A stretch of DNA of 64,000 nucleotides from Tubulanus polymorphus (lineage: Eukaryota > Nemertea > Palaeonemertea > Tubulaniformes > Tubulanidae), in NCBI RefSeq assembly GCF_964204645.1, contig NC_134029.1:23950450-24014449 (forward strand). The letters are read 5' to 3'. Below are positions 2,029 to 54,000 of the stretch, piece by piece. The notes beneath the pieces are model-generated. The model was given only the letters and a program-made list of their open reading frames with translations. It ran no database searches and was not told the DNA's origin. Numbering within the stretch: position 1 is the stretch's first letter; each line of letters opens with the position of its first letter. Position numbers and translations under genes: made by a program.

Positions 2029-5000
2029 TTAATCCCAACCGACTGGAATACCCCTCTTCTCGTTATGGCCTTGTAGCCATTCATGAAGAGGAGCAAAATA
2101 ATTTAGAATTGCGGATGCATCTAATTTTCCACGTGAACTTGGGTCAAAGTCTTGCATGGTTTCTTGCCACGGAAGAGCAGCTCCTTTTGACAGCATTTCT
2201 CTGGAAAAGAAAATAGCACCAAACTGTTTCCTGAAGAGAGTCGGATCCAGCGCCGGAGTTGACATACGACGCAGAGTTAACTCATTGAAAATGAACTAAA
2301 ATCTAAACTCCAAGGTAACTCTTACTGGCGGCCCTGGAACTGGATCCTGATTTGTTAGACAATCGTTACAGAAGGACACCTGGTATACTTACAGAAATTT
2401 ATTCCCAGCCGCTTCTGAACCATATATGTCGCAATTGTGAATCGGGCCGGTTTGTCGGGCACAAGAGCAGAGCTTTTTTTGGAATTGGAATTGAATTATG
2501 AAACTGATGAAGTATCTGAAAAAGAAACGATTCTTGCTTTTCAAATGAAACCAGGGTAACAGAATATACTTGATATGGTAAAATTCCAGTTTCTTTATTT
2601 TCAGGATATCCATCTTTACACAATCTAAATGCGTGGTGTTGGAAGAATAGCCGAACTCTGACGTGGAAACAGTTTAAACCCAACTATATAGGTGTGACCT
2701 GACGATCGAGAGTTCTCGTAACTCCATTATTTTGGTTTATTGAATTTTGTTTTTTATCTTTAAAATTCTCTGAATAGTGGGTTTTGAACTTATTATACGT
2801 AATATTGTATTTTTACCTAATATATGGTGTAAATTGAGCCACATGATACTTAGAAATGGCGTCAAAATCGTTTTCAGTGCGTTCCACTGGTGGACCTAAT
2901 CCCTGAAAATATTTCCTGCAATAAACCCAGTTTATATGTTATTATCCATGCTGATACCTTTCATGCATTCATTTTTCAATATGCAATAGAAAAATTCGTA
3001 ATCGTTTTCTAATCCAAAGGAAAGAAATGAAATTTTAACGATCAGAAATATATCTTCAGTTGCTATAGGCTAACCTGTATTCCCACCAAGCTTGGTTGTA
3101 ATTCTGCTCAGAAATACTACCGTTAAATACAGCCCAGCGCCACGTCTCAACAGTCAAACTATACGGTAGGAAAATAATTTTGGCCATAGCTTGACGGAAC
3201 AGATAGTTGATCATCATACCATCTAATGAAGAAATTTAATAAAATCAATTTAGAACTGTTAGCGTTCGTTTTTAATCTCAAGGAGCCGGTCCCATAGTCA
3301 TGGCTTAAACTTAAACACTGGTCTAAGATCATCTTAGTTCTATAGCCAATCACTTTCGGACTTAAGTCTCGGCTACGGAATCGGCTCAACATGTTTTATA
3401 AACTATGCAATATTAACTTACAATCGTCAAATCTATCGGTTTCAGCTAATAAGCCAAGTTTCTTTAGGTGTTTAGGCGTTGTAACAGATAGCGCGATAGT
3501 ATCACCGACTGCCTCGTGAAACCCGGCGTTGGCTCCCGATCGATATAAAGCAGGTAGATTACTGTACGCCATATAATACTGAACGTGGCCCATCTCGTGG
3601 TGGACGGTCTTCAGGTCATCCATGTTGATTTTTGTACACATCATTATCCTGAAAACATTGACGACAATAATATCAAATTTATGTGTATTATGTCGATGGG
3701 TGTGAATGGTGGTCCGGAAAGTGGTTGTTAGATGGAAACGGCGGGGTCTGATGTGATATGTAGAAACCTGCAAGTGAAACGCGACAGTTTCTTTTATTAC
3801 CATTAATAAAACATGAAGGCGATTCGTGATGACGAAGACGAGCTTTTCAAGTAGAGAGTAAATTAGAGAAAACCTATTGACCTTAACCGTTGCGCGTTGG
3901 CCAGGTGTGACAGTCCCACGCCTGGTGGTGGACACTTTTACCAGACCTATCTCTGTTTATTGCGGTTAGAAATGAATGACTGGGATGTTCTTATCATTCG
4001 ATGAAAAGTAGTTGTCGGCTCGGTTTTTAATTTCACCAGTACTAAAACGTATTTGGAACTCGTGGGAATCAATTTAAAGTCAATATCGCGATGAAGTCTA
4101 CAACGCGTGATATATGCTCGAGATGGATTCACACGAGTCCCAAATACACCTGGGTTCCAGTTATGTATCCAATGCATCGGGGAGAAGTGAGTTACTATAG
4201 GTCTATACCTGTAATCATCCCTATGCGGAGAGTTCATATCCCATGCAGTACCGTGACAATTTATCCGTCTGTTCTTTGGTTTTTGGATATCGCTATTTTT
4301 CCAAAACTTGCTCGTCATTTCGTTCATTCCGATCGATTTGTAGAAGTCTTCGGCCATTTTGAACATGCGCAGTGGAGTGTATTTCTTCTTTTTCATTGTA
4401 TCGCTTACGTCTAGAGAGGGGGCATTCGGATAGGGCCACATCAGGTCTACAATATCCTGCCAATTTTGAGCCCACATATTACCTGAAAGGAGGATTCATA
4501 TAAACACATTCATACGTCTTCGGAACAGTAAAGGTTATTCAAAACAGATAGAAATAGATATGAAAAATGAAAAAATTGGTCAAGGAAAGAAATTCTGCTA
4601 AATTACTTCATTTCGATTATATTTACCCAGTAAATGAGCTGGAATAAGACCTCGGGCGGGGATCTTATGCGGATAAACCTGACGTAGTTTCCAGCGTACG
4701 AATGCGTGCAGCTGTTCGTACAACGGTTTGACCTGTCGCCAAATATTCAACGATTCCGTATCGAAACGTTTGTTAGCGGTATCGCTCTCGCGCCAGAACT
4801 CACCGTAATCCGCGTAACCTGAATATCAGAAAACATTTATTAAGATGAATAAGTTTATGATATCAAAAAGTACATTTTTGTATCATACAACGCAAACACA
4901 TAATATTTTAGGACGGGTGGAAAAATCTGATAGAATTTACTTAGATATTCAAGTTTCCTTGGAAGAGTGATTGGTTCTGGTGGAACGGTCAATGTTTGCA

Positions 5001-22370: not shown

Positions 22371-23405
22371 ATGATGTCATCGACATTTCCGAATCAGTCG
22401 TCGAATAGTGGTAACGATTCCACTATTGCTCTCGTCGACCCGACCTACTATGGCTTGCCACTTTACACGTCCATTGTACTGGACACGCCGCGCAGTCAAA
22501 CTGCCACTTCTTCTATGCGTTATTACAATCTGATCGTGCTACCAATCGTCGCTATAGCCGGGATATTCGGTAACATTTGCAGTTTTCTCGTGATGACAAG
22601 CCGTAAATTCCGCGTTTTCTCCTACTCCCAGTATCTCGCCGGACTGGCTGTGTTCGACATGATCACTCTGTTCGCCTATACAGTTCCCTTTCTGAACTAC
22701 GTATCTTTGCCTCGCTTCGTTATGACATACTCCAGTAATATCTCATGCGCCGTTCACGAATATATCTGCATGGTGAACGACACTATCAGTTCTTGGATGG
22801 TAATCGTTATTACAGCCGAACGTTTCGCTATCGTAGTCTGGCCATTTTCGGCTAGAACTATCGCAACGCCTAGCTTCTCGCGGAAAGTCGTCGTCGCCCT
22901 GGCGGTCATCATCTATTGCGTCTATATCTACTTATTAATCATAGTCGAATACAAGCATCATATCAACAGAAAAACGTGCGTCATGGCGAATCGATGGAGA
23001 AGCGTTCATTTTCAAATAGCGACTGTTATCACGGTTTACTTTCCCACATTCTGTATCCTTGCTCTTAACGCTATGTTGTCGATTATTCTGCGACGAAGCC
23101 AGTCTTTTGGTGCTGGTGCCACGAAGGCAGCTTCGACTAGGAAAGCGACGGTTATGGTAATGACGGTATCCATATTATTTGTAATTTTCACCTATCCAAC
23201 TGCGTCGTTTATGCTTATTTCAACATTTATTAGTATTTCACCCGAAGCGATCATGGTCGGATCTTCGATTACCGGTAGTCTATACGCCGCTAACAGTGCC
23301 ATCAATTTCTACGTGTATATTCTGGCCGGGGATGAAGTGAAAAACTTCGTGGTCGAAAAAATCCGAAGTTGGATCGACTCAATGCGACACTTCTGTAATC
23401 ATTAG
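22371..23405 (+). CDS. intronless class A (rhodopsin-family) G protein-coupled receptor, ligand unknown
   Basis: 344 aa in one exon, starting ATGATG; the second Met is equally possible. The extracellular N-terminus (1-52) has two N-glycosylation sequons (N8, N15). Seven hydrophobic segments follow: about 53-76 (GN motif, N68), 86-108 (D96), 129-152, 174-192, 215-240, 259-283 and 296-319. C126 at the top of TM3 and C203 in the second extracellular loop should form the conserved disulfide. TM3 ends ERF instead of DRY, TM6 has FTYP in place of CWxP, and TM7 has NFYVY in place of NPxxY, followed by an amphipathic helix 8. This pattern fits the divergent peptide-type receptors expanded in many marine invertebrates, but the sequence does not reveal the ligand. 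Candidate AATAAA signals lie near 23822, 23854 and 23923. Confidence 0.9.
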   Translation: MMSSTFPNQSSNSGNDSTIALVDPTYYGLPLYTSIVLDTPRSQTATSSMRYYNLIVLPIVAIAGIFGNICSFLVMTSRKFRVFSYSQYLAGLAVFDMITLFAYTVPFLNYVSLPRFVMTYSSNISCAVHEYICMVNDTISSWMVIVITAERFAIVVWPFSARTIATPSFSRKVVVALAVIIYCVYIYLLIIVEYKHHINRKTCVMANRWRSVHFQIATVITVYFPTFCILALNAMLSIILRRSQSFGAGATKAASTRKATVMVMTVSILFVIFTYPTASFMLISTFISISPEAIMVGSSITGSLYAANSAINFYVYILAGDEVKNFVVEKIRSWIDSMRHFCNH

Positions 23406-24133: not shown

Positions 24134-24895
24134 TCATTTCGCACGAAATTCATCTAAGTTGAGAGACATGTGTTGGATACATATCATAAAAACAGAACGA
24201 AATCGTTCGTATTCAATTAAACCACGTTTGAATCCGTATCTTGAATACAGCCTTAGACCTGCTATTTGTTCGGTCACCGCGGACAGGTGAATCCTGTCAT
24301 AGTTATTCTGTTTACAGAACTCGACGCAATGATCCAGTAATTTACGACCTATTGATAAACCTCTAAACGATACATCAACCACCATTCGCTTCAGTTCCGC
24401 TATTTTTACATCGCTATCGACATCGGAATCCAGTTTCCCGCTGGAGACGTTTCTATATTTCGAATATTCCTCCAACCGTTCGTGCAAAGAATCTTCATTT
24501 ACGATAGCCGCATAACCGACAATTCTACCGTTTATTTCAGCTACGAAAAAGTTCGAGTCCGGTTCTGATTGATAAACATTCTCTATATCTCTCAAATCGC
24601 CGCAACAGAATCGAGGAAAAGCACCGAAATACAAGCAATAGTATAAAGTTCTTACGAATAGAAATATCAGCGGTGCAGCTAACCCCAGTAGAAATGAACC
24701 AGTCACCGCAAAAGTGACCAGCGCCAAAGAGAGTAAAATCACTTGAATATAAGTTTGTTTCACGGCATTCGGAAGTCCATCCGTGTAGCCAGTTCGATAG
24801 TTATTAGCGTCCAATATATGAACTATCCGTTTTATATCGTCGTAACCGTGTCGATAAGGACGTACTGAAACTTCCAATTGATCAGAGGCAGACAT
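24134..24895 (-). CDS. NAT8/camello-like GNAT N-acetyltransferase, array copy 1
   Basis: 253 aa, single exon, ATG at 24895. The N-terminal cytosolic segment (VSVRPYRHGYDDIKRIV) is followed by a hydrophobic hairpin (about 52-90) that would anchor it in a membrane, as in NAT8/camello proteins of the ER and Golgi. The catalytic GNAT fold follows: NFFVAEINGRIVGYAAIV (beta strands 2-3), an acidic variable loop (about 150-165), then the acetyl-CoA motif A LKRMVVDVSFRGLSIGRKLL (R178-G183 as the pyrophosphate loop) and the C-terminal RLYSRYGFK. Family members acetylate cysteine conjugates or lysines; the substrate here is unknown. It is the left-most and most diverged intact copy (TM region and C-terminus MSLNLDEFRAK). 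About 340-650 bp upstream is a tract with repeated GTCAAA. Confidence 0.85.
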   Translation of the reverse strand: MSASDQLEVSVRPYRHGYDDIKRIVHILDANNYRTGYTDGLPNAVKQTYIQVILLSLALVTFAVTGSFLLGLAAPLIFLFVRTLYYCLYFGAFPRFCCGDLRDIENVYQSEPDSNFFVAEINGRIVGYAAIVNEDSLHERLEEYSKYRNVSSGKLDSDVDSDVKIAELKRMVVDVSFRGLSIGRKLLDHCVEFCKQNNYDRIHLSAVTEQIAGLRLYSRYGFKRGLIEYERFRSVFMICIQHMSLNLDEFRAK

Positions 24896-25229
24896 TAAGC
24901 TTTAAATCAAAAGCAGATCCTACTACAAGTGGACGGTTACTCTTCAAGCCTTTGTGCTTCTATAATCTGTGACCGAAATAAAAACAGCACCAACGACCCT
25001 ATACCAGAACGGAGCTTTATCTAGACTCGTGATCTAGACTATATATCTATAGATTCTAGTCGTGATCTAGACTAGTGTCACGGCCATATAGTGCCATACA
25101 AATGTCAGTGTATGCACTTGACGTCATAGTGCACCTTATTGGCAAACCGCTATCCGAGACAAAGGTCAGAATAACATCAACTCAATATGAATGAATTTTC
25201 CGTATTGTTACTAGTCTAAATTTCGAGTG

Positions 25230-25545
25230 AGTCAAATAACTATGGCATAGATATCCTGTCAAAATTAAACATCAAATTCACTCGTCAAACTTTCATATTT
25301 TACCCGTCAAAATTAAACATCGAATTTTCTCGTCAACTCAACATAAAATGGTCGTCAAAACATCGTATTTGACGCGTCAAATATGATCTCGCATTACCTA
25401 GTTGCTATCGTAGATATACTGTCAAAACTCGTTATCATTTGACGCGTCAAAATCGCTATCGTAGATATACTGTCAAAATTCAAACTTCGTATGTACCAAT
25501 TACCCGTCAAAATCACCGTTTTTACCCGTCAAATTACGCATCAAA
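25230..25545. repeat. GTCAAA-rich decayed repeat tract upstream of acetyltransferase copy 1
   Basis: Eleven plus-strand GTCAAA hexamers occur in about 310 bp, mostly as CGTCAAA or CTGTCAAA. They include two TTTGACGCGTCAAA palindromes and a 24-bp segment (CTATCGTAGATATACTGTCA and flanks) that occurs twice about 51 bp apart. It looks like a decayed minisatellite but sits in the promoter-proximal region of the minus-strand gene to its left. Confidence 0.7.
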
Positions 25546-26631
25546 CCACGTATTTGGATGGGTATTTGGACCAGGTTTTGCACGGTGGCGCATAATTAGG
25601 AAGGCAACCAGTCTATTGTTTTAGCATACGGCGAATCTAGAAACATTAAAACTCGTCAGTTTTGTATCATATCAACGATATTCCGTGATCCATTCGATAG
25701 ATTGTTATTCGTCGATTATTGAAAACATTTTGGAGTGATAAATTCAATTGATTCAAATACCAAGATATTTAGCATTTCGTTACTTCGATTTTACAGCAAG
25801 AAATATTTTTGACCTTTCAACTTCGGACCAATAGAATAATCTAAGTAAAAATTCAAAAAACGTTCAAATTGCTTGTTTTTGTTTTAGTTTTAGTTTTGAA
25901 TTTATTTTGCATTTCAAAATTCCATTACAAAATAGAAAAATTGACAGGGTTTCGTGTGAATTAATTACAATATAGAGTAATAGTGAAAATGCAGGAGACC
26001 CAGAGAAATCAAAAAGTGACTTACACGAATCCGGGCCCCCTAACTCGAAAAAGACGCACGCACGCACTTAATAAACTTATTCTATTCAAACTATACTAAA
26101 CCTATGCGCGATAAGACTGACGGCTGCTACCGCACGAGGTAGAACGAATGTAAGACAAATGAATCAAGTTGATTTCGTGGAATTGCTTTGATAAGAAGAA
26201 CACTTTATTTCCTTCGAACGGCGAGAGACGTAAATAGTGCAACTAGAATAAACCAGAATTCATCATGTGATTTCCATAAACCGGTTATCAATATTCAAAC
26301 AGAACAAAATAAATATGAACGAGTTGACATTTATTGTTCTTGTAAATTTCCTGGACGACGACCGCATGGATTGTAAGGAGGGATCATTCTAAAAGTAAAT
26401 GATATTACGCCAGAAACGATAAGAGAAATGTAGAGCACAAGTTTTGCACTAGAAACGAGACGCGATATTCAAGTATCTTGTGACATTACAGATAACACGA
26501 TCATCTTTGGAATCTAGTTAATTCTACTGATAATCTAAATTACTATCACCACTGTGAAGTATTTGCCGGTAATTTTCCATTTAACCTCAAAGCTATAAGT
26601 ATCTGAACACATCAGACGCTTTCTTCGTGCT

Positions 26632-27374
26632 TTAAGATTTATCAATTAAAGATAAAGACATGTGGTGCATCCATACCATCAGTATGTGGAATCTCTTTTC
26701 ACATTCAATAAAGTCTAGTTTAAATCCATATTTTGAATAAAGCCTTATGGCTGCTATTTGTTCACTGGATGTAGTTAAATGAATCCTGTTATAGTTATTC
26801 TGTTTACAGAACTTGACGCAGTGATCCAGTAATTTACGACCTATTGATAAACCTCTAAACGATACATCAACCGCCATTCGCTTCAGTTCAGCTATTTCTA
26901 CATCGTTATCAGAATCTAGTTTTCCACTGGAGACGTTTCTATATTTCGAATATTCCTCCAACCGTTCGTGTAAAGAATCCAATTTCGTAATGGCCACACA
27001 GCCGACAATTCTACCGTTTATTTCAGCTACGAAAAAGTTCGAGTCCGGTTCTGTCTGGTACAAACCAGCGATATTGTTGAAATCATCACAGTAATATGTA
27101 ACTAAACAAAGAAATGATAAATTTGTAAATTGTTCTCACGCAAAGGAACGTAAGGTACGCTTGCTATTCCTAAAATAAGTGAACCAGTCATCGAATAGAT
27201 AGATAACAATATGATGAAAACATACGCGTGTGTAGAAGTCCTTTTCAGCGCATATGGAAGCCCTTGTGTGGACGGAATTCGACAGATACTTGTAGTGTAC
27301 ATAGGAATTAATTCGTCGACATTGTCACTATTGTTCCCGTATGGACGTACCACCACATCCGTTTCAGAATACAC
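26632..27374 (-). pseudogene. NAT8-like acetyltransferase pseudogene, array copy 2
   Basis: Homologous along its whole length to the intact copies, but broken. The position aligned with the other start codons is GTG rather than ATG (27374). The N-terminal frame (SETDVVVRPYG ... GSLILGIAS) runs into TAG at 27102 just after the transmembrane hairpin. The catalytic half (YQTEPDSNFFVAEING to HHMSLSLIDKS, 27063-26632) continues in another frame, so at least one net frameshift lies near 27100; an intermediate third-frame stretch suggests two indels. The catalytic half keeps motif A (DVSFRGLSIGRKLL) almost unchanged, so decay is recent or this half was refreshed by conversion. Confidence 0.85.
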
Positions 27375-27720
27375 TAATTCACTAAACAGATAGACGCACC
27401 GTATTTTTGGTTTTGAACGAGTGATTTAGAAACGAGTATATACAATCACCTGGATTAGCTTTCATCATCTCAAAATCCAGAACAGAGAGGTCGGAAATAG
27501 TTGGCAAACAGGTTTTGTACACATGCCACAAATAGCTGATTACATAAAAAAGCTATTTAATCTGCACCCAGAAAAAGTGATCAACCAGGACATAAAATAA
27601 ATATGGTTGATTCCGATTGTGCAGTCTATGTACTTGTTGGTCTTGTCTAGCTGAAATTACTTCAGCTAATTACATGACATGAGACTGACTTGAATGATAA
27701 TGATTTCTCAAAATGGTATT

Positions 27721-28467
27721 TTATCTACTAAGAGATAGAGACATGCGATGTGCATATACATGTAATACTGATAAACTGAATTCAGTTTTTACTGAGTCCA
27801 GTTTGAATCCGTATTTTGAATACAATCTTTGGGACGCTATTTGTTCACCAGTTGTCGTTAAATGAATGTTGTCATAGCTGTTTTGTTTACAGAACTCGAC
27901 GCAGTGATCCAGTAATTTACGACCTATTGATAAACCTCTAAACGATACATCAACAACCATTCGCTTCAGTTCCGCTAATTTTTCATTGTTAACAACATCG
28001 GATTCTAGTTTTCCATCGGAGACGTTTCCTTTTCCTTGTATCGAATATTCCTCTAATTTTCCAGGCAAAGATTCCAAGTTTACGATGGCTGCGCAGCCGA
28101 CAATTCTACCATTTATTCTAGCTACGAAAAAGTTCGAATCGGCCTCTGTTTGGTACAAATCAGCGATGTTCCGGAGGTCATCGTAACAGTATTTCATATA
28201 ATAAAAGTAAATCATGGATTTATATAAAGTTCTCATGCACAGGAAAGCGAATGTGGCTCCTAATACTAAAATGAATGAACCCGTCAACGCGTAGGTTGAT
28301 ATTGATAGAATAAGTAAAATCACTCGAATATAAGTGTGTCTCAGTGCGTGCGGAAGCCCCTCGGTGAAAGCGATCTGGTAGTAACTTGTTTTGAAAATAC
28401 GGATGATCTGTTCAACATTGTCGCCTTGTCGATAAGGTCGTATCATAATTTGCGAATCTGTAGACAT
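27721..28467 (-). CDS. NAT8-like GNAT N-acetyltransferase, array copy 3
   Basis: 248 aa, single exon, ATG at 28467. It has the same architecture as copy 1: IRPYRQGDNVEQIIRIF, a membrane hairpin (VILLILSISTYALTGSFILV), NFFVARINGRIVGCAAIV, then ELKRMVVDVSFRGLSIGRKL and YGFKLDSVKTE, ending HRMSLSLSR. It carries an Arg in ARINGR where the other copies have AEINGR, and a longer loop (YSIQGKGNVSDGKLESDVVN) before motif A. Its N-terminal half is closest to copies 7 and 8, while its C-terminal tail is its own. Confidence 0.85.
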   Translation of the reverse strand: MSTDSQIMIRPYRQGDNVEQIIRIFKTSYYQIAFTEGLPHALRHTYIRVILLILSISTYALTGSFILVLGATFAFLCMRTLYKSMIYFYYMKYCYDDLRNIADLYQTEADSNFFVARINGRIVGCAAIVNLESLPGKLEEYSIQGKGNVSDGKLESDVVNNEKLAELKRMVVDVSFRGLSIGRKLLDHCVEFCKQNSYDNIHLTTTGEQIASQRLYSKYGFKLDSVKTEFSLSVLHVYAHRMSLSLSR

Positions 28468-28950
28468 GTTTAGCAGGGCTTATGTTAATTGGCTTTGGCA
28501 CCAGCAAGCAGAAAACAGGTCCGTTCGAATCTAAAATGAACAGATTAAGGCCCGATGAAATTAATACCTTCATATCCAGGTAACGATGGTTTTCTCCTAG
28601 CGAGGAATTGATATCTCCATAAATTGGGAGAGTATTATTTTATAGATTGCAGATTGTGCGCTATATCTACGCACAACATTCATTAACAGAAGTTTATATG
28701 CTTATCAGGATCGAGTTATAGGAACAGTGTAGTAGTTGGCTTGCATATACATGATCACTGTTGGCAATATGGCAGTAAAATGATTTGGTATCATGCACCA
28801 GAGTTTGCTATGCTCGGAAAAAAGTTCAAAACATGCCATTTGACCAGTAAGTAGGTCATCAGTTGGCCATCTTGAATCGCACCTCCCGTTAATGGTTCAA
28901 TTACAATTAGTATCACTGTTTCAGATTCAGAATGTCATCAGGAATTCATT

Positions 28951-29380
28951 ACAGTGGTTTATTTTATGAAATCTCTACTAGAAGGTAGATTTTTAGCCTG
29001 GATTTTGTCTCGAGATTGTTTCGACCTTTGAACCAGACACCATATTGGATGGGTCAATCTAAAGTGATAGAATATTTGCTGAAACAATGTTTCATGACCC
29101 ATTCAACTTGAGGAAGAAAATAAAACTTTCTTGTCAATTTCAACAATTGCATCAGACAATTTGGCTAGCATCAATAACCCCGGTGACAGTTGACAAACAT
29201 TGGATTAGTTTTATGCACTGATTACCCTCACGTCGTTTCAGCAAATACTGAAGATAAATCATCACTTCAGATTTCCCAATCCAATATGGCGTCCTATTGA
29301 ATGATCGTCACGATTCTGAGATAAAAACCGGGCCAAAAATCTACTTTCTAGTGAAAGTATATCATAATATAAAGCAGTGC
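28951..29380. repeat. 430-bp fold-back element (inverted repeat, ~140-bp arms)
   Basis: The left arm (28951-29085) and right arm (29235-29380) are imperfect reverse complements. Shared blocks include AGAAGGTAGATTTTTAGCC, CACCATATTGGAT, AAAGTGAT and TATTTGCTGAAAC, each found inverted in the right arm. The loop is about 150 bp, and partial similarity continues into it. No coding capacity. It sits between acetyltransferase copies 3 and 4. Confidence 0.8.
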
Positions 29381-30199
29381 ATAGGATTCGGTGAGACTTT
29401 CTGAAGCTAGAACAGTGATTGATAATTCAGTAAATTGCCTCAATCACGAGAGGTGCGGATCTGCACTTTTACACACAGCGATTAAAAAACACATCGCACG
29501 AGTAAACGCACATTTTTGAAAGTTTGACGGTCTACCACAGTGTGTGCCTTTATCACTTCATCCTGTAAACTATATCACCAGTACTCAACGTTATAAATAA
29601 TTACTTACTTCGTAAAATAAACGCTTAACCAAAAGGAAAATTGGCCCAAAGAATCGGCCTGTTATAAGTCGAAAATAGTGCCAGTATAAATGCGCGTGTG
29701 CTTCGCCCAATGGTAAGTGTATATAGGATAAGAGACATCTTCACCTGTCAAGGGATTCGAACCCACTACGCTAAAGCTGTTCGCCGAACTGGTGGAAGCG
29801 AGTTCGGAAGTGATACCAGACCCCTGGCAAGCGAGGATGGATAAGAGAAGAAGGGGACAGACACAGACAGGTAAACAGGCAGACAGTAAGTATATGACCG
29901 GGTATACGTTTGCGTGTCCACTCTACTCCAGTCAAAACAAAAAATTCAACGTATTTGCTCTATTGAAGAAAGGTAAAGGCTCTAACAAAACCAAACCTGC
30001 TCCTGAAGTTTATTCGTGTGTCCAATATTCTACCCTGCCGTGATGATTTGTTGTACAACAGACTGAATGGGGAAGGCAGACGTCCTGACTGAAAAATTAT
30101 ATCCAAAAAATTACCTACATTCATCAACGTCTGAACGATAGAAAACTATTTTATTTGTGCCGGACATACCAACAAGAAAAATAAAAGAGGGAATTGATA

Positions 30200-30845
30200 G
30201 AACAAGTTTATAACTGAGTGAAAGAGCTTGTAGTGCGCATATACCTATATAAAACAGGCAATATCCTATTAACTCAAGTTTGAATCCGCATTTCTTATGC
30301 AACCTTTGAGCTACTAACTGTTCGCTTGCGGTAGTTAAATGAATCAAGTTATAGTTGTTTTGTTTACAGAACTCCACACAATGATCCAGTAATGATCCAG
30401 TTTTCCACTGGAGACGTTTTTACGTATTGTGGAATATTCCTCCAATCTTTCGTGCAATGAATCCAAGTGCACAATAACCATTCTACCATTTATTTCAGCT
30501 ACGAAAATGTTAGTGTCCGGTTCCGTTTGGAATACACCAGATATATCATTGAAATCGTTACAAAAGTATAATATATAGAAGCTATAATAGCTCATCTTGT
30601 AAATAGTCCTCAGGAACAAGAAAATAAGCGCAGTTGTCGATGCGAGAAGAAATGAACCGGTCGCAAGGTAAGTTACTAGCGCTAGTGCGAATAAGATCAC
30701 TTGAGTTCAAGTTTGTTTCAGCGCGTGTGGTCCCTCAACAAAAGCGATTCTGTGGTAAAAACTGTCATTAAATATCTTTATTATTTGTTCAACGATGTCT
30801 CCCTTTCGTTAAGGGCGTATTGTAACTTCCGTTCCCGAAGACATC
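30200..30845 (-). pseudogene. NAT8-like acetyltransferase pseudogene, array copy 4, missing motif A
   Basis: Several independent lesions are visible in a recognisable copy. The ATG survives (30845, MSSGTEVTIRP) but is followed by an in-frame TAA after codon 11, by loss of the Leu codon in EGLPHAL, and by TGA where the others have KQTYIQV. The transmembrane part and EINGR motif follow at 30700-30480. A deletion of roughly 90 bp then joins the SSGKLD region to the LLDHCVEF region, across short CTGGAT homologies at about 30390-30405. It removes ELKRM...RGLSIGRK, which is the acetyl-CoA site, and changes frame. The 3' part (NLIHLTTASEQLVAQRL) is out of frame and its normal stop is lost. Confidence 0.85.
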
Positions 30846-31000
30846 TTATCCGACCCGATATAAACCCAGTACCTCATAGCATGTAGTAAACCACTAAAAA
30901 TCACCTTATCCCAGCACACGATTTCACGAAGAGAAAAAATCAGTTCTACGCAGTTACGTATATTCTACGCCTGGATTCAACGACTCATACAGAAGCCAAA

Positions 31001-31726
31001 TCATCCAAGACATAGAGACATGTGATGCGTGTTTACGTATAAAAGAGGCAATAGTCTTTCACATTCAATAAACTCAAGTTCAAATCCATTTATTGCATAA
31101 AATCGTCGACCGACTACTTGTCCAGTTGTGGAGGTTAAATGAATCTTGTCGTAGTTGTTCTGTTTACAGAACTTGACGCAATGATCCAGTAATTTACGAC
31201 CTATTGATAAACCTCGAAACGAAACATCAACCACCATTCGCTTCAGTTCAGCTATTTTTACATCGCTATCGTGGTTCCCACTGGAGACGTTTTTACGCAT
31301 CGAATATTCCTCCAACCTTTCGTGCAAAGAATTCAAGTTCAAAATAGCCACATAACCGACAATTCTACCGTTTATTTCAGCGACGAAAAAGTTCGAATCC
31401 GGTTCTGTCTGATACACACCAGATATATCAAACAAATCACTAGAACAGTATAACACGAAGAACAAATAGATACCGAATGTGTATAATGTTCTTAGGAGTA
31501 AAAAGGCGAACGCGGATGTTAATCCGAGAAGAATTGAATCAGTCGCCGCGTAAGTTATCAGCGCTAGGGAAACTAAGATCACTCGAATATAGGTTTGTTT
31601 CAGTGCGTGTGGAAGCCCCTCGGTAAAAGCGATCTGGTTGTAACTTGTCTTGAAAATACGGATGATTTGCTCGACATCATCGCCTCTTCGATACGGACGT
31701 ATCAAAACCTCTGTTCCTGAACACAT
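31001..31726 (-). CDS. NAT8-like GNAT N-acetyltransferase, array copy 5
   Basis: 241 aa, single exon, ATG at 31726 (MCSGTEVLIRPYRRGDDVEQ). It has the membrane hairpin VILVSLALITYAATDSILLGL, NFFVAEINGRIVGYVAIL, a short loop (RKNVSSGNHDSDVK) and intact motif A VDVSFRGLSIGRKLL. After motif A it departs from its neighbours (TTGQVVGRRFYAINGFELEF), changing the usual RLYSxYGFK signature, so substrate preference may differ. Ends HMSLCLG. Confidence 0.85.
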   Translation of the reverse strand: MCSGTEVLIRPYRRGDDVEQIIRIFKTSYNQIAFTEGLPHALKQTYIRVILVSLALITYAATDSILLGLTSAFAFLLLRTLYTFGIYLFFVLYCSSDLFDISGVYQTEPDSNFFVAEINGRIVGYVAILNLNSLHERLEEYSMRKNVSSGNHDSDVKIAELKRMVVDVSFRGLSIGRKLLDHCVKFCKQNNYDKIHLTSTTGQVVGRRFYAINGFELEFIECERLLPLLYVNTHHMSLCLG

Positions 31727-32589
31727 CCAGACAGCGTGTAACCCTGCTAAGTCGATTACAATGGTTAAAGGTTATGCTTACACAGCAGCTGCTATGTTTT
31801 TATATCGAAGTCATCAATATGAACTAAGTGCAATGCACACTGAGTTATACGTATGATAAACAGGTGACCCTTATCATTCAATCACTGATGTCATTTTGTT
31901 CACTGATGAACAATATCAATATATGTCAAATGGAAGTTCGTTCCAGGGTGAATGAACCCCATTATGGGCTCATTATTGGCTGTAATATCATAAAGCTAGA
32001 AAGAATAAATGAGGTCCTGTGCGTATCTTGTTTCAGATAATGTTTGGAAGTTCTTCAGTAATGGCAATCCAGTTAAAACATTCATTTCAAAAATGTCACC
32101 TTCGACAAACTAAAACTTTTGAACATATTTTTCCACACTCGAGTCGTGAATGACAAACAATAACACGAAGACTATTAACCTTTTTCACGAGTGGTTTTAT
32201 TTTACTGCTCAAAGTTTCACATCTAAATTATACTGAACCAAGAAATCTGTGGGACGAAACGTTTATTGAAAGTAAGCCTAGCCGGAACTTCGCAGGTTGC
32301 TAAGTCTTTAAAAACTTGGAGATAAGTTGAGATAAATTACTCGTGGCCTTGTCATTTCTTGGGACCGAGTTCTTGGGACCGAATACTTGTTTCTACTGTG
32401 TTTGGCTGTGGGCTTAAAACTCTCTTTCAACGTGGACTGTTTATCATGATACATACAGTCAATGAAGCATCATTAATAAATATGAAACGATCAATTACTA
32501 CAAATCAAAAGAACATTGGATGAAATTGTAACTAAATAAGTTATCGCTGACGCGACTTTACTTTAGTACAGATTATCAGTCGCTTGAGG

Positions 32590-33330
32590 TTATTGAATAA
32601 ATAAAGACATGTGATACACGTATACGTGGAATAGATGCATGAAAATATCACTTTCAATGAAGTCAACTTTGAATCCGTATCTAGTGTACAATCTTTGGGC
32701 AGCTATTTGTTCACCTGTTGTGGTCAAATGAATCCTGTTATAGTTATTCTGTTTACAGAACTTGACGCAGTGATCCAGTAATTTACGACCTATTGATAAA
32801 CCTCGAAACGATACATCAACCGCCATTCGCTTCAGTTCCGCTATTTTTACATCGTTGTCGACATCAGAATCCAGTTTTCCAGTGGAGACGTTTCTATGTA
32901 TTGAATATTCCTCGAATCTTTCGTGTAAAGAATCCTCGTTCACGATAGCCGCGCAGCCGACAATTCTACCGTTTATTTCAGCTACGAAAAAGTTTGATCT
33001 AGCGTAGGGTTGTTGATATACCCCGGCTATATCATGAAAGTCATCGCAACAGAATTTAGTGTAGATTACATAAGCGATACTCTTGTAACAGGTTCGAATA
33101 GCTATACCGATCAATATGGAGAATAATCCAAGAATATACGAACCGGTCGCCGCGTAAGTGACTAAAGCTAGAAAGAATAATATCACTTGTATATAGGTTT
33201 GTTTTAAAGCGTGTGGAAGTCCTTCAGTATGAGCGATTCTGTAGAAACTTTCATTAAATATCTTGATGATTTGTTCAACATTGTCGCCCTTTCGATAAGG
33301 GCGCACTAAAACTTCTGGTGTCGGAGACAT
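32590..33330 (-). CDS. NAT8-like GNAT N-acetyltransferase, array copy 6
   Basis: 246 aa from ATG 33330 (MSPTPEVLVRPYRKGDNVEQ). The frame is open further upstream to 33399, but homology to the other copies begins here. It has the hairpin VILFFLALVTYAATGSYILGL, an unusual insertion (VYQQPYARSNFF instead of VYQTEPDSNFF), NGRIVGCAAIV, motif A DVSFRGLSIGRKLL and the tail RLYTRYGFKVDFIESD, ending HMSLFIQ. An inverted-repeat element lies about 210 bp upstream. Confidence 0.85.
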   Translation of the reverse strand: MSPTPEVLVRPYRKGDNVEQIIKIFNESFYRIAHTEGLPHALKQTYIQVILFFLALVTYAATGSYILGLFSILIGIAIRTCYKSIAYVIYTKFCCDDFHDIAGVYQQPYARSNFFVAEINGRIVGCAAIVNEDSLHERFEEYSIHRNVSTGKLDSDVDNDVKIAELKRMAVDVSFRGLSIGRKLLDHCVKFCKQNNYNRIHLTTTGEQIAAQRLYTRYGFKVDFIESDIFMHLFHVYVYHMSLFIQ

Positions 33331-33539
33331 TTTTACACTGTAAAATGGAAATAGACTGAGGTATTTATTCGTTGCGTAATAATAATTGACAAGAATCAAC
33401 AGATGATAAACAAACGTTATTAAACACTAAGTAATTACCTCTGGTGGATGTAGTCCTACTGCATGCAAAGGCAATGTGAGCATTACGTCCCAAATCAGCA
33501 GACAAACGGTAAAAAACAAGGTTTAGGGTAAACAAAAAT

Positions 33540-33731
33540 GATACCTTGTTTCTCCGCAGCGGCCGGGTCATTTTTGTAAAATATGATAAAATTTATAAAC
33601 AGTTCATTTCTATAGCGGCCGGGTCTATTATGGTAAAATTGATCACGATTTAAAAAAACCTAATGTATAGGGTAGATAGGCGGCCGGCCGGGTCAACATT
33701 TAAGCTCAGCAGAGCGGAGAAACAAGGTATC
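33540..33731. mobile_element. 192-bp element with 18-bp perfect terminal inverted repeats and internal GCGGCCGGGTC repeats
   Basis: GATACCTTGTTTCTCCGC at 33540-33557 is exactly reverse-complemented at 33714-33731. The match extends outward by several bases with one mismatch (AAAAAT / AATTTT). Three GC-rich motifs of the type GCGGCCGGGTC, two of them shortly followed by TTxTGGTAAAAT-like sequence, occur inside otherwise AT-rich DNA. No coding capacity. It lies between acetyltransferase copies 6 and 7. Confidence 0.8.
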
Positions 33732-33945
33732 AATTTTTTTTTGCCTTATCACTGACGAAACTTAAAAAATGCAGACAAGCACGTGATAGTTGTGTCTAAG
33801 TGTCATAACTTTATACAGTCGGTATAGATTAAGTACCCATATCTAATCAATAGGCAATATCGGCAAGATAGAAAGGGCAAGTGAGTTCAAGGATATAATG
33901 AAATCGTCAGAAATATGAGACTTTAATTATGATGATCCTCCATCT

Positions 33946-34665
33946 TTATTTGAGATTTAAATACATGTTATGTATGTACGCAAATGCGATATAAACTCTT
34001 ACACGTACAATGAAGTCAAGTTTGAATCCGTATCTCGAATACAATCTTTGGGCAGCTATTTGTTCACTGGATGTAGTTAAATGAATCCTGTTATAGTTGT
34101 TCTTTTTACAGAACTCCACGCAATGATCCAGTAATTTACGACCTATTGATACACCTCGAAACGAAACATCAACAACCATTCGCTTCAGTTCCGCTACTTT
34201 TTCCACCTTCGCATAAGAATCTGCCTTACTACGGTACAACGAATTGTTTTCTAATTTCTTGTGCATAGATTCCTTATTAACAATAGCCAGACAGCCGACG
34301 ATTCTATCATTTATTTCTGCTACAAAAAAGTTCGAATCCGGTTCAGTTTGGTACACACCAGATATATCATCAAGGTCACCAAAAAAACAAAGAATGTAGA
34401 AGACAAAGCCACCGAATTTGTAAATAGTTCTCAGAAACAGGAATACGAGCGCAGCTAATGAGCCTACAAGAAACGAACCAGTCAACGCGTAGGTTGATAT
34501 TGATAGAATAAGTAAAATCACTCGAATATAAGTTTGTCTCAGCGCGTGTGGAAGCCCCTCGGTGAAAACTATCTGGTAGTAACTTTTTTTGAAAATACGG
34601 ATGATCTGTTCAATATTGTCGCCTTGTCGATAAGGTCGTATTACAATTTGCGATTCCGCACACAT
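33946..34665 (-). CDS. NAT8-like GNAT N-acetyltransferase, array copy 7
   Basis: 239 aa from ATG 34665 (MCAESQIVIRPYRQGDNIEQ). An upstream in-frame extension to 34722 is open but not homologous to other copies. It has the hairpin VILLILSISTYALTGSFLVG (identical to copy 8), NFFVAEINDRIVGCLAIV (Asp replacing Gly in the NGR turn) and a remodelled loop (NSLYRSKADSYAKVEKV) in place of RNVSSGKLDSD. Motif A reads DVSFRGVSIGRKLL. Tail: YGFKLDFIVRVRVYIAF, then MYLNLK. Confidence 0.85.
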   Translation of the reverse strand: MCAESQIVIRPYRQGDNIEQIIRIFKKSYYQIVFTEGLPHALRQTYIRVILLILSISTYALTGSFLVGSLAALVFLFLRTIYKFGGFVFYILCFFGDLDDISGVYQTEPDSNFFVAEINDRIVGCLAIVNKESMHKKLENNSLYRSKADSYAKVEKVAELKRMVVDVSFRGVSIGRKLLDHCVEFCKKNNYNRIHLTTSSEQIAAQRLYSRYGFKLDFIVRVRVYIAFAYIHNMYLNLK

Positions 34666-35258
34666 TTCAACTCCTAAATAGAAAAATGTACAATGAACTA
34701 GGATTCTGATGACGTGAGACATTAGCGAACTCTTCGAACTTCGTCAAAGATATTCTGAAGACGTTTTTATGTACTTACCTGTGTTCAGTTAAAAAGTGGG
34801 TCCTTGTGTGACGTTATAAATCCCTAGTATTGATGATTTTTAAAGCTTTATCGTATTGTCAGATAATGGGAAGTTAGTAGTCAGTCGATAAAGATGGACT
34901 TTGATATGCTCAAAGTTCAGATGTCCAGAAACGACTGTTAGAATCATTCCATGGTTTCGTGATTTTTTTCACCCGGAGAGTAGTAACCTATTCTAACTTC
35001 AGCTATACATCAAAAATATCTTATATAAAATAAAAATATCTAATATTCTGAAACAAAGACGAATTGTTTTATTCGCTTATTACTATCAGGTGTTGCTTAC
35101 GAACCGAAGATAAAATACTGACGGTAGAATACAAGACCGTCTCGGAACTGAAATAACAAGTCGTCAACAACGAAGATTTGTTCATAATCCTTTTAAGTTT
35201 ATGTAAGGTTTAGGTACATGTCATGTATGTATACAAACAGCACGGATAATCTTCGGCT

Positions 35259-35924
35259 TTAACAAATAAAGTCAAGTTTGAATCCGTATCTTGTGTACAG
35301 TCTTTGGGCCGCGATCTGTTCACTTGTTGTAGACAAGTGAATCCTGTTATAGTTATTCTGTTTACAGAACTCGACGCAATGATCCAGTAATTTACGACCT
35401 ATTGATAAACCTCTAAACGATACATCAACCGCCATTCGCTTCAGTTCCGCTATTTTTATATCAATATCAAGATCATCAGAATCGAGACTACGGTACAGAG
35501 TATAATGTTTGAATTTTCCACGCAAAGATCTTTCATTGACAATAGCCGCGCAGCCGACAATTCTACCGTTTATTTCAGCTACGAAAAAGTTCGAATCCGG
35601 TTCTGTCTGGTACAAACCAGCGATATCATTGAAATCATCGCAGTGACAGGAAATAAAGTAGATATAGTTGCTAAATTTGTATATAGTTCTCAGAAACAGG
35701 AACGCGAGTGCAGCTGTTAATCCTACAAGAAATGAACCCGTCAACGCGTAGGTTGATATTGATAGAATAAGTAAAATCACTCGAATATAAGTTTGTCTCA
35801 GTGCGTGCGGAAGCCCCTCGGTGAAAGCAATCTGGTAGAAACTTTTAGTAAACATTCGATATATTTGCTCATTATTGTCGCTACGTCGATAAGATCGCAC
35901 GAAAACTTCCGATTCTGGAGACAT
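35259..35924 (-). CDS. NAT8-like GNAT N-acetyltransferase, array copy 8, C-terminally truncated by a stop
   Basis: 221 aa, ATG at 35924 (MSPESEVFVRSYRRSDNNEQ). It contains the hairpin (VILLILSISTYALTGSFLVG), NFFVAEINGRIVGCAAIV, motif A (DVSFRGLSIGRKLL) and RLYTRYGFKLDFIC, then TAA. Reading past that stop in the same frame gives a further 20 or so codons that align with the normal tail (FVYIHDMYLNL) and end at a second stop, so this is a nonsense change and not a different family member. The lost part is the last GNAT beta strand, so activity is doubtful. It could be a recent pseudogene or a segregating allele. Confidence 0.75.
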   Translation of the reverse strand: MSPESEVFVRSYRRSDNNEQIYRMFTKSFYQIAFTEGLPHALRQTYIRVILLILSISTYALTGSFLVGLTAALAFLFLRTIYKFSNYIYFISCHCDDFNDIAGLYQTEPDSNFFVAEINGRIVGCAAIVNERSLRGKFKHYTLYRSLDSDDLDIDIKIAELKRMAVDVSFRGLSIGRKLLDHCVEFCKQNNYNRIHLSTTSEQIAAQRLYTRYGFKLDFIC

Positions 35925-37599: not shown

Positions 37600-37783
37600 C
37601 CGAGTTGAACGGTTAACTCCGAGTTGAATGGTTAACTCCGAGTTGAACGGGTAACTCCGAGTTGAACGGTTATCTCCGAGTTGAACGGTTATCTCCGAGT
37701 TGAACCGTTAACTCCGAGTTGAACGGTTAACTCCGAGTTGAACGGGTAACTCCGAGTTGAACGGGTAACTCCGAGTTGAACGG
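37600..37783. repeat. 19-bp tandem repeat, ~9.7 copies
   Basis: The unit CCGAGTTGAACGGTTAACT is repeated almost ten times with few substitutions (GGGTAACT and GGTTATCT variants). Each unit contains GTTAAC or a near-palindrome. The array ends in a degenerate unit followed by CTTGAACGGAGT. Confidence 0.95.
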
Positions 37784-39400: not shown

Positions 39401-39598
<198 letters not shown>

Positions 39599-50400: not shown

Positions 50401-50544
50401 CGCTGACAAGAGAGCACGTGCACACAATCATTGGGAAATGGTCCCTCCTCTTCAGTGTTTCATTCAGTGATTTCGACCAATAGCGCGAGGCGGCTCTGCT
50501 TCTACTTTGCTATTACATGCCAGCACGTCCATGTGCAAACACAG

Positions 50545-51035
50545 ATGACTTGTCACATGCGTGCTATGAACATTATGAATACAATGTTGAACGGACGTAC
50601 GGCGCTCAGCCCTGGGGCTTCGCCTCCCCATCACGCTATAAATCCGGCCCTGTACCGCGAAGATATTCAGCCGCTCAGTCTGAAGATGGAGAAACCTAGT
50701 TACAGCAGTCCTCCGCCGGTCGCTTCGAATCACCCGGATAACAATGTTTGTAAAATGATCGAATACCGGGGCGCGAAAGTTGCCGCGTTTTCAGTGGACG
50801 GGCGCGAGCTTATCTGTCTGCCCCAAGCTTTTGAATTGTTTCTAAAACACCTGGTCGGCGGACTTCATACGGTTTACACAAAACTGAAACGTCTGGAAGT
50901 TACTCCGATCGTCTGCAACGTCGAACAAGTTCGAATCCTGCGGGGATTAGGTGCCATACAACCGGGCGTCAATCGGTGTAAACTCATCTCGTGCAAAGAG
51001 TTTGATATTCTTTACGACGACTGCACGAATTCAAG
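50545..51035 (+). CDS. dac: dachshund (DACH) transcription cofactor, first coding exon
   Basis: 163 codons plus two bases, ending at a donor (TCAAG|GTAAGA, 51036). The first in-frame ATG is 50545; the frame is open upstream but without ATG, and four more Met codons follow within 13 residues. Residues 1-66 are low-complexity (SPGASPPHH, PSYSSPPP). From about 69 the SKI/SNO/DAC domain (DACHbox-N) is nearly identical to vertebrate DACH1/2: YRGAKVAAFSVDGRELICLP, QAFELFLKHLVGGLHTVYTK, PIVCNVEQVRILRGLGAIQP, then GVNRCKLISCKEFDILYDDC. DACH proteins act in the nucleus with Six, Eya and Pax factors in eye, limb and neural development, and this domain binds DNA or partners. The remaining exons, including the C-terminal DACHbox-C, are not in the window. 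Confidence 0.93.
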
Positions 51036-54000
51036 GTAAGACAATATTTCCATATTTCCTCTTTCGAGCTGACTTACAAAACAAGTAACGAGATGATTCA
51101 TCTTAATGAAGGTGTTCATTAGTAAGCAAAATATGTGTATAATCTTAAGGTAAGCTGGGACCAAAGTTAGGAATAATTGGAGAAATTATCAGGTATTCTA
51201 TTAGGATGAACTAATATTCAATTTAAACGACAGGATGATAAATTACGTGTGTTAATAAATGAACTGACGGTCGCCCAGCGCGTGTCGGGTCAGAATAACC
51301 GTTCGGTAATGAATAGCTAATTTTTAAGCGCGCGACACCGCGTATACGTATCGACTGTCAACGTCGTTTTATTAACATTATTATTAAAGTCGAACGTTTT
51401 AACGGCCGTGAAAACTAACAACAAAAACTAGATGGCAAAATGTAATTACACGTTAAATCCTGACTAATCGAGTTCGGTAGGTGTCGATTCATATGGAAAT
51501 ATCATTCGCGAAGAACAGTCGAAATATAGATTAACCGAGTGAATAAGAGAAAATCATTTCTATTATTTGGTTATTAATGGCGTCGGAGGATGTTCATTTA
51601 TCATGATCTATGTCGTATTAGCACTATGTGGCTCGTTTCTTTTGTTGATAATTGTCGGTTGCCTAAGAAGATTAAGTCCTAAAAGCGTCAACGTGCACCT
51701 CTACCCCGTCCCGTATCGACGATCTACGACACTTTTTCTTCCTCAACTCGTTTGTCGGCTTGCGTCACATTCATTTATCTTTTTAGTACGAACATTTGAA
51801 AAAATAGCGCTAACAGATTGACGGTTTTTGAATGTTGCTCACGAGAAGATGGAGATTTTAGAAAGGTTTCCAGTTGATGACTTAAGACTGAGGACGAATG
51901 ACGAAAGTATTAATGACTAAGTTTACCTTTGATGATTTGGCATGGATTTCAAATACACTAGATTTGAGATTTATTTACCTATTTACAGCAGGTGATAGGT
52001 ATCACGTAAAACCAGTTCCCCGCAGCACTATATAATGCCTGAGCGCCAACGAAAAAAACTTCACTGGGAAAAAGTCATAAACATGATGATTACAGCAGTT
52101 TGAGATGTTATTTCTTAGTGCGAACTGAATGAGGCGAGCTATTATTCTTTTTGACATCTCTAGTATCAAGTTTTCACAGAAACAATAAGTTTATTTCGCC
52201 TCGTCGACATCTTTTCTTTATCTCAACTATTTGTTTCGTTTTCCGGTTGGTTTTGTGGTTTTCTAACGAGGAGCTTATAATATAATAAAGAGTTTCTTCA
52301 GTCGGATTTTTGACTTCCTCAATCTACAATCGTCCACTATAGGCAACAGGTTTTCTGAGGAGAACACAGCCCATTTCGATTATTTACAATTGTTTTAATT
52401 GTAATTGTGGATGCGATTGTGGTTCTCATTTGGATGGGAACTCGATGTGAACTGCATTTGGCCTATAGTTGTCATTTTATTACCCATCAAAAAGGGAACC
52501 TCAAAATATAAGACACTAAAATGATAACATATTCGACAAGTTTACTCACAAAAGAACATTCAACCAAAAGTAAACTCTGTATACAATGACGGGTTTCTAA
52601 TTATCTTTCTCTGCATTGCGCTGTTGGCTTGAATAATTTCCATAGATATTGTTTTTCGTCTTTTAGACTTGGGTAAACATTTTTTTCTAGATTAAGTATA
52701 TCTTAAGTATTCTTTTCTTTCGCGAAGCACCGAATACTTATCGGCTGGCAGAAATCAATGAACACGGATACTGCAGAATGGATGCTCGTTATTATTCGTA
52801 TTTTCAACTCGACATAATTATATTTTCAATAATTCTTATTGAAGTACTGCTCTAACAGCGCGAGCCTGCTGACTATACATAGCAGTGCTTGTGATTTCAT
52901 TAATTAACATTCCGCGTCCTGTCACCCCTACCGACAACGACTGCAAAAGTAATCTTTAAAATCTTCGGCATCGAAAAATTCAATCCTCTCTTAAATTTTC
53001 ATATTTCAGTCCTTTGTTATAAGTGGTGGTAGTTGCAACGGAGTGATAGGCATAAATCATGTCAAGTTTTGTCGCATATTAGAAGGCAAATAATAATTGT
53101 AAACATCGCCTGATAGACAAAACGAAAATATTGTTCTAAGTATTCAGTTTTGAGTGGGATTTGTTGTCTTTTCTATTGTGAATGTAGCGCATTTTGAACA
53201 GTACTTAACGCGCGATCAGCTATTTCGTTCAGTTTGTCTTGTTTGCAAAGCACTAGACAACATCGACAGAATAGCAATGTAATGTTCATTCGAATTCAAA
53301 TTGAATTTTACAGATTGACGTAAAAATGTTACTGAAGGGCCTATTTATAAAAAAGAGTTCGAGTTACAATGCCGATGAACTAAACAGCGTTCGTTGTTTG
53401 GCCAAGTTTGAATATAAAGGAGCTGCGCCCGACGTTACAACATCTGTCGTGAAAAAAAAAAAAACAACTCAGTCGATTAAAGGAAGGAAATCCGATATAT
53501 TTCTTGTCGCGGTGAAACATCCGCGTAAACAATCATAGATAAACCGAACACACGCCTATTTTCATATACATTGAAAACAAACTTCGTTCCAAACATTCGT
53601 GGAATGAGGCTCGAAAACTATGGCCTGATTTTCCGTGAAAAAAAAAAACAAACATTCGAACAAATCAATAGCGATTCAATAGAATATCAACACATTATTC
53701 GTTTTGAATTCTGACTAAAACTGCGGATAATTTACTGTCGAAACGTTTGAATTGTAACAGACTGTAATTGATATTCTTTACGTCGCTATTTCGTCTTAAA
53801 AACGATCGTCGTTATTAGTTCTATTTAAGGATAATTGCACGAATTCGAAGAATAAACTCGAATTCTCGAAAGAACTCAAAATACATAGATCAAAATATTC
53901 GTGTGTTGTGTGAACACACACATCTCTCGCCGTCCTTGCACAATAAAACATACCTGAATAACCAGAACATGCCAACGACGTTATTTGCTAAAGAAGATTT

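Follow-up and report, generated by a model that had tools for sequence, protein, structure and literature searches.

A tandem array of putative NAT8/camello-like acetyltransferase genes in the nemertean Tubulanus polymorphus, with copies that appear to have exchanged coding segments

Introduction

Mammalian NAT8 and Cml proteins are GNAT acetyltransferases that carry an inserted hydrophobic hairpin and whose coding sequence lies in one exon. Members of the NAT8/camello family are located in the endoplasmic reticulum (ER), with cysteine S-conjugates, lysine, or aspartate as substrates, and NAT8 and NAT8L catalyze the N-acetylation of small amines or amino-acid conjugates. The textbook form of GNAT motif A is [RQ]xxGx[GA].

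In mammals, NAT8 and NAT8B are linked duplicates, one of them broken, and conversion from NAT8B to NAT8 is proposed in PMC2330028. The array presented here shares with NAT8, NAT8B, and rodent Cml a GNAT protein with a putative inserted hairpin, coding sequence in a single exon, linked duplicates that include a broken copy, and a proposal of gene conversion. The array differs in its greater number of copies, a longer loop before motif A, and a Ser in place of the first motif A Gly. The conversion proposed in PMC2330028 concerns the promoter region, whereas that in the array concerns coding sequence. Tandem expansion of NAT8/camello genes in invertebrates was not found among the titles listed in the open-access literature, although such reports may exist in print; neither NAT8 nor camello occurs in the text of PMC7790372.

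Results

Layout of the array

In the window (the whole stretch of DNA analyzed, 64,000 nucleotides of T. polymorphus contig NC_134029.1), eight NAT8-like homologues lie side by side on the minus strand at positions 24134 to 35924. They comprise five intact open reading frames (ORFs), one shortened ORF (c8), and two pseudogenes (c2 and c4).

c1, 24134-24895, minus strand, intact NAT8-like ORF from ATG to stop, 253 aa
c2, 26632-27374, minus strand, pseudogene, with GTG at the expected ATG and a frameshift in the hairpin with TAG at 27102-27104
c3, 27721-28467, minus strand, intact ORF from ATG to stop, 248 aa
c4, about 30237-30844 (limits approximate), minus strand, pseudogene, with early stops TAA and TGA, a deletion spanning motif A, and a frameshift
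c5, 31001-31726, minus strand, intact ORF from ATG to stop, 241 aa
c6, 32590-33330, minus strand, intact ORF, 246 aa counted from the ATG at 33330, with a core tract in common with c1
c7, 33946-34665, minus strand, intact ORF, 239 aa counted from the ATG at 34665
c8, 35259-35924, minus strand, ORF of 221 aa, with TAA at 35259-35261 after ...YGFKLDFIC

An earlier note had counted eight same-strand homologues, five of them intact, one shortened, and two pseudogenes, and this count was upheld by the ORFs, the lesions, and a genome search. With c3 as the query, the search returned c3 itself at an E value of 2.2e-162 and the other five open copies at 1.5e-96 to 3.8e-81, and chance resemblance is therefore excluded. 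The copies are adjacent, fall in a single clade (c2 and c4 being outside the tree), and include both intact and broken members, as birth and death would produce. Comparison by eye of 200 bp of flanking sequence on each side gave no convincing alignment between copies, so the limits of the duplication unit could not be set.

In c2, the reading frame of the GNAT half (26632-27063) is still open. A recognizable homologous tail continues past the c8 stop to the next stop at 35199, and c8 ends at the aligned residue at which an unbroken relative (L009) ends, so the product of c8 may be functional despite its early stop.

The description of these genes as intronless stood for the coding sequence and was qualified for the noncoding part upstream. 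Sites resembling splice acceptors were found 5 to 8 nt before the start codon, or former start codon, of c2, c6, c7, and a dispersed relative located on contig C3. Such sites thus occur in 4 of the 10 members of the array clade, compared with 2.4% of 1777 control ATGs, which hints at a noncoding upstream exon or a trans-spliced leader in some copies. A second in-frame ATG of c7, at 34722, lies upstream of its acceptor-like site.

Relatives elsewhere in the genome

At least nine further relatives were found in the genome beyond the array. They include, on other contigs, an intact relative, the C3 copy, which is the closest kin of c1 (73% identity), and a broken pseudogene (contig C7). A separate cluster, L012, has four members. 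L009, a singleton, shares the contig and strand of the array, lies at a distance of 64 kb, and adjoins an NAA10 gene; it resembles the array in its identity to c3 (33%), its layout, and its end residue, but differs in its canonical motif A (RKMGIG), its shorter loop, and its position in the tree. Relatives were also sought on viral contigs, where none of 32 pattern matches was confirmed.

Family assignment

All seven array proteins scanned (the six open copies plus the GNAT half of c2) matched Pfam Acetyltransf_1 (PF00583) above the curated cutoff, with E values of 4.4e-14 to 1.6e-18. NAT8 and NAT8L were represented by provisional reference sequences, not database entries. An array profile matched these provisional sequences, NAT8L (E = 1e-18) scoring above NAT8 (8.6e-11), while NAA10, the single outside control (identity established by a PDB match at 6e-94), was not among the matches listed. 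By BLASTP, the provisional NAT8L was matched by all six open copies (27 to 33% identity over 125 to 163 residues) and the provisional NAT8 by five, c6 being the exception. E-L-x-R-M is common to NAT8L and the array, as is D-x-x-D-I except in c3 (D-x-x-N-I). In the tree, the array and the C3 copy formed one clade apart from the other nine proteins (bootstrap, 80), and it was L009, not the array, that grouped with the provisional NAT8 and NAT8L (bootstrap, 79). No NAT8-specific family model was among the matches listed for eight proteins in Pfam and five in NCBIfam, and no solved NAT8 or NAT8L structure was named among the PDB sequence matches (49 at E ≤1 and 14 at 1e-3).

Motif A reads R-G-L/V-S-I-G in all six open copies and in the C3 copy, with Ser replacing the first Gly, and so departs from the textbook definition. 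The bacterial GNAT 3d8p was the best PDB match both by sequence (2.3e-9) and by fold (E = 4.5e-4, from a weak model); its motif, R-N-L-K-I-G, is likewise without the first Gly, and the textbook form therefore does not strictly define a GNAT. The 163-residue chain of 3d8p aligns to the GNAT core alone (c3 residues 163 to 222) and, judged from its length, probably has no membrane hairpin.

An inserted hydrophobic segment (Kyte-Doolittle mean of >2.0 over 19 residues) starts at residues 49 to 60 in all six open copies; a second segment (mean of >1.5) was found in just two, c1 and c5. A low-confidence predicted structure (pLDDT, 57.8) placed helices at 40 to 62 and 65 to 104 ahead of a strand at 114 to 119, and Foldseek with this weak model (mean pLDDT, 57.8) gave 2 of 872 matches at E ≤0.001. 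The Foldseek result supports a GNAT fold and nothing beyond it. Array proteins belong to the GNAT superfamily on the evidence of their sequences, and the narrower NAT8/camello-like assignment of the earlier note, which survived the Pfam, hydrophobic-segment, profile, and tree comparisons, is probable rather than proven.

Regional divergence

Nei-Gojobori estimates (hand-coded) of dN were 0.07 in the acetyl-CoA core, 0.39 in the hairpin, 0.43 in the loop before motif A, and 0.63 in the C-terminal tail, in agreement with the claim that amino-acid variation is concentrated in the latter three regions. The claim that the acetyl-CoA motif is nearly invariant likewise held for amino acids but required qualification, since dS was also low in the core (0.30, versus 0.86 to 1.01 in other regions); core invariance alone is therefore no evidence of conserved chemistry. 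The ratio dN/dS was 0.39 in the hairpin, 0.44 in the loop, 0.63 in the C-terminal tail, 0.23 in the core, 0.19 in residues 96 to 130, and 0.33 over the whole protein.

These values bear on the proposal of one chemistry applied to diverging substrates, under which purifying selection on motif A would keep the chemistry while the hairpin, loop, and tail diversify adaptively. In its favor, dN/dS in the hairpin, loop, and C-terminal tail exceeded that in residues 96 to 130 in 98%, 98%, and 99.75% of bootstraps, respectively, and that in the core in 89%, 93%, and 98%, and the loop is longer than in the provisional NAT8 and NAT8L. However, the intervals overlap (0.34 to 1.05 for the C-terminal tail and 0.10 to 0.48 for the core), and no region was shown to exceed 1, so relaxed constraint fits equally well as new substrates. 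Furthermore, homogenization of the core at silent sites means that amino-acid invariance overstates selection, the core does not fall below residues 96 to 130 in dN/dS, and the array includes two pseudogenes and the shortened c8. This proposal is supported in part but is judged unlikely.

Silent sites and gene conversion

Core pS was 0.25, compared with 0.54 elsewhere, and none of 20000 column permutations was as extreme. A test for shared third-position tracts, conditional on polymorphic sites, identified 4 of 21 pairs (global p <0.05); core tracts were shared by c1 and c8 (p = 0.006) and by c1 and c6 (p = 0.026), pairs that are not nearest relatives over the N-terminal half. In approximately unbiased (AU) tests, N-half data rejected the core tree (p = 0.0015), whereas the N-half tree was compatible with the core data (p = 0.14), and the topology test is weak evidence of conversion. 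The third-position runs suggest gene conversion, by which the array copies appear to have swapped pieces, and we infer that it is conversion, as opposed to some other process, that accounts for the low dS of the core.

Low core dS could instead reflect constraint at the nucleotide level, through codon choice or an overlapping element, and the effect does extend beyond the array. The dispersed C3 copy had core dS values of 0.31 to 0.83 and remainder values of 1.27 to 1.73 against five array copies (0.31 and 0.57, respectively, against c1), which needs conversion before its move, ectopic conversion, or some silent-site constraint; in L012, pair a/c had its lowest dS (0.04) in the motif A block, the same direction as in the array. 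Yet c1 and c8 differ at 2 of 29.2 silent sites in the core, compared with 77.7 of 133.1 outside it; for c1 and its sister C3, the core figure is 7.5 of 29.9. GC3 is similar in the core and the remainder of the seven sequences. L012 pairs a/b and b/c showed the opposite pattern, with dS of 1.04 and 0.87 in the motif A block and 0.17 to 0.26 in alignment columns 80 to 160, and silent conservation therefore does not always accompany motif A. Nucleotide-level constraint is judged unlikely.

That the copies are mostly nonfunctional relics, with the odd working gene at most, would suit c2, c4, the shortened c8, and the broken C7 copy but is very improbable, given that five frames remain open at a non-core dS of 0.58 to 1.32, an age at which neutral copies should hold stops, and given the overall dN/dS.

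Discussion

The array is probably a lineage-specific family of NAT8/camello-like GNAT genes in tandem, shaped by birth and death together with gene conversion and encoding membrane-held acetyltransferases. Its origin is ordinary gene duplication and decay, to which the apparent swapping of pieces adds a twist.

We infer the membrane placement, topology, activity, and substrate class of the array proteins. Products of the intact copies would be anchored in an internal membrane (the ER, by analogy with NAT8 and NAT8L) by the hydrophobic hairpin, which would be inserted after the first strand and helix and before the remainder of the GNAT fold. The predicted enzymes would, like NAT8 and NAT8L, use acetyl-CoA for N-acetylation, with a small amine or an amino-acid conjugate as the substrate.

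When a motif is invariant across a tandem array, the cause may be gene conversion and not selection on chemistry, and silent sites therefore need checking before function is read from the motif. A more speculative and, in our judgment, improbable extension is that the copies form a cassette-like set, in which conversion keeps the acetyl-CoA core common while the hairpin, loop, and tail diverge and the motif A Ser alters acyl-donor preference. If so, T. polymorphus would possess several membrane-bound acetyltransferases differing in substrate or acyl-donor preference. In this animal, the array is a multicopy expansion of a gene family to which detoxification and neurometabolite enzymes belong.

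Array composition and genomic relatives

Eight homologous genes were found on the minus strand at positions 24134 to 35924 of the window (c1 to c8, numbered along it), as the earlier note had counted: five open, one shortened, and two broken.

c1, c3, c5, c6, and c7 (minus strand): five uninterrupted ATG-to-stop frames
c2 (minus strand): GTG in the expected place of the ATG and a frameshift within the hairpin, the inserted hydrophobic part near the N terminus
c4 (minus strand): two early stops, a frameshift, and a deletion spanning motif A
c8 (minus strand): TAA stop at 35259 to 35261, with tail sequence still recognizable as far as the next stop, at 35199

Between c6 and c7, a MITE-like inverted repeat of 33 nt was present (33525 to 33746; 88% complementary, arms 156 nt apart). 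A single-exon, rhodopsin-class GPCR ORF of 344 aa (22371 to 23405, plus strand) adjoined the array on the opposite strand. Elsewhere in the window, an angiotensin-converting-enzyme (Peptidase M2) gene was represented by two exon-like ORFs (3396 to 4477, minus strand), and one exon encoded a Dachshund homology domain of the SKI/SNO/DAC type (50431 to 51039, plus strand). This gene content (ACE, Dachshund domain, GPCR) points to an animal genome. Two simple repeats were also present: a tandem repeat with a 19-bp unit in 9.7 copies (37600 to 37783) and a stretch in which TA was repeated 99 times (39402 to 39598).

A search of the genome (267.8 Mb in 77 contigs, the window belonging to contig C5) recovered at least nine further related loci, locus counts being lower bounds.

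C3 copy (contig C3): intact, 73% identical to c1
C7 copy (contig C7): broken
L009 (2270 to 3551 of its own locus, minus strand; on the array's contig and strand, 64.2 kb away): NAT8-like singleton without the C-terminal tail
L011 (contig C7): singleton
L013 (contig C1): singleton
L012 (C5:3914000-3920500, genes at C5:3.915-3.919 Mb): independent NAT8-like cluster of three full-length members (a, b, and c) and one shorter open frame

L009 lay directly downstream of, and on the same strand as, an NAA10 gene, identified by its PDB match to human-type NAA10 (6e-94). A tree was built from 16 proteins: seven from the array clade, seven others from this genome, and provisional reference sequences of NAT8 and NAT8L. 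It omitted c2, c4, the short L012 member, and the C7 pseudogene, and it split the array and the C3 copy from the other nine proteins (bootstrap, 80). The copies therefore group together and do not represent separate old families.

Family assignment

All seven array proteins scanned matched Acetyltransf_1 (E values, 4.4e-14 to 1.6e-18); no NAT8-specific family model was among the matches listed from the profile libraries searched. An array profile matched the provisional references for NAT8L (E = 1e-18) and NAT8 (8.6e-11; search space, 100000); the NAA10 control was not listed among its matches, and L009, L011, and L013 scored above or about as high as NAT8L. By BLASTP, all six open copies (c8 included) matched the NAT8L reference (27 to 33% identity), and all except c6 matched the NAT8 reference. 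In the tree, the NAT8 and NAT8L references were joined by L009 (bootstrap, 79) and not directly by the array. The NAT8/camello-like assignment has good support from these comparisons that falls short of proof because the references are provisional.

The C3 copy shared with all six open array copies the motif A sequence R-G-L/V-S-I-G, in which Ser replaces the first Gly of the canonical motif. This Gly was present in L009, the three L012 copies, NAA10, and L011 (whose first residue was Lys) and was replaced by Lys in L013; 3d8p, a bacterial GNAT of solved structure, likewise lacks it. The order of elements in the array proteins fit a strand, a helix, a hydrophobic hairpin, and the remaining GNAT domain. 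Because the structure model had low confidence and only two of six open copies exceeded the threshold set here for a second hydrophobic segment, a single-pass or re-entrant membrane arrangement is possible.

Variation along the gene

Nei-Gojobori estimates were obtained for seven sequences (c1, c3, c5, c6, c7, c8, and the C3 copy), pseudogenes being excluded.

Divergence by region (dN; dS; dN/dS)
N terminus, 1 to 44: 0.28; 1.01; 0.27
Hairpin, 45 to 95: 0.39; 1.01; 0.39
Residues 96 to 130: 0.18; 0.90; 0.19
Loop, 131 to 160: 0.43; 0.96; 0.44
Core (acetyl-CoA-binding part around motif A), 161 to 204: 0.07; 0.30; 0.23
Residues 205 to 225: 0.24; 0.86; 0.27
C-terminal tail: 0.63; 1.00; 0.63

Both dN and dN/dS confirmed that variation is concentrated in the hairpin, loop, and C-terminal tail, whose ratios exceeded that of residues 96 to 130 in at least 98% of bootstraps. 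The tail was the least constrained part (interval, 0.34 to 1.05), and no region's ratio was shown to exceed 1. L009 and c8 ended at one shared position of the alignment, and L009 had AATAAA 92 nt past its stop; given this shared end and the weak constraint on the tail, c8 may be a working short form, and "truncated" should not be equated with dead.

The near-invariant core described earlier stood at the protein level (dN, 0.07), but silent sites were also low there (dS, 0.30). Across 216 of 256 columns (any-gap columns, and hence the tail, removed), pS was 0.25 in the core (43 columns) versus 0.54 elsewhere (173 columns), a difference matched in 0 of 20000 column permutations. Core invariance is largely common to silent sites and is thus confounded as a sign of selection.

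Probable gene conversion

The low silent divergence of the core is probably due to gene conversion. In a Sawyer-type test (166 polymorphic third positions, 1000 permutations), global P was <0.05 for 4 of 21 pairs: c3/c7 (0.000), c3/c8 (0.003), c1/c8 (0.006), and c1/c6 (0.026). With all sites, it was ≤0.0017 for the ten pairs listed of 21 (600 permutations). The c3/c7/c8 tract is less telling, since those three are also close relatives over the N-terminal half; c1/c8 and c1/c6 are not. Silent differences between c1 and c8 numbered 2 of 29.2 sites in the core versus 77.7 of 133.1 elsewhere. Two results count against conversion: the topology test was significant in one direction only, and low core dS was common to the C3 copy too.

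In L012, pairs a/b and b/c had few silent differences in columns 80 to 160 and not in the motif-A block, and a/c was low throughout (minimum, 0.04, in the motif-A block), a partial contrast that is noisy because it involves only three full-length members in 40-codon blocks. The low silent divergence outside motif A in two of the three pairs suggests that L012 has conversion tracts of its own.

Coding exons and start sites

The coding sequence was one exon in all six open copies, the sense in which "intronless" holds. An acceptor-like site (YAG, pyrimidine fraction ≥0.65, within 10 nt upstream of the start) occurred at 4 of 10 array-clade starts (c2, c6, c7, and C3; 5 to 8 nt upstream), compared with 2.4% of 1777 control ATGs. 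The c8 site fell narrowly under the threshold (0.643, 8 nt), and none lay within 10 nt of the start in c1, c3, c4, c5, or the C7 copy. Among eight other starts, only NAA10 had one. A trans-spliced leader or a 5' noncoding exon is plausible for some copies.

Functional implications

The array is real, correctly described, and ordinary, and its family was correctly assigned as far as testable. Human NAT8/NAT8B, described as linked duplicates with one broken copy and proposed gene conversion, offer a precedent for all three features (PMC2330028). Cysteine S-conjugates are reported as the substrates of NAT8, and aspartate as that of NAT8L (PMC12219266). By analogy with the family, which guides the prediction of catalysis, membrane location, and substrate class, the array proteins would most likely be membrane-held, acetyl-CoA-dependent N-acetyltransferases acting on small amines or amino-acid conjugates. 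To the earlier proposal of one chemistry applied to diverging substrates, this analysis adds a qualification: silent sites in the invariant core have also diverged little, probably through gene conversion, and this confounds the core's invariance.
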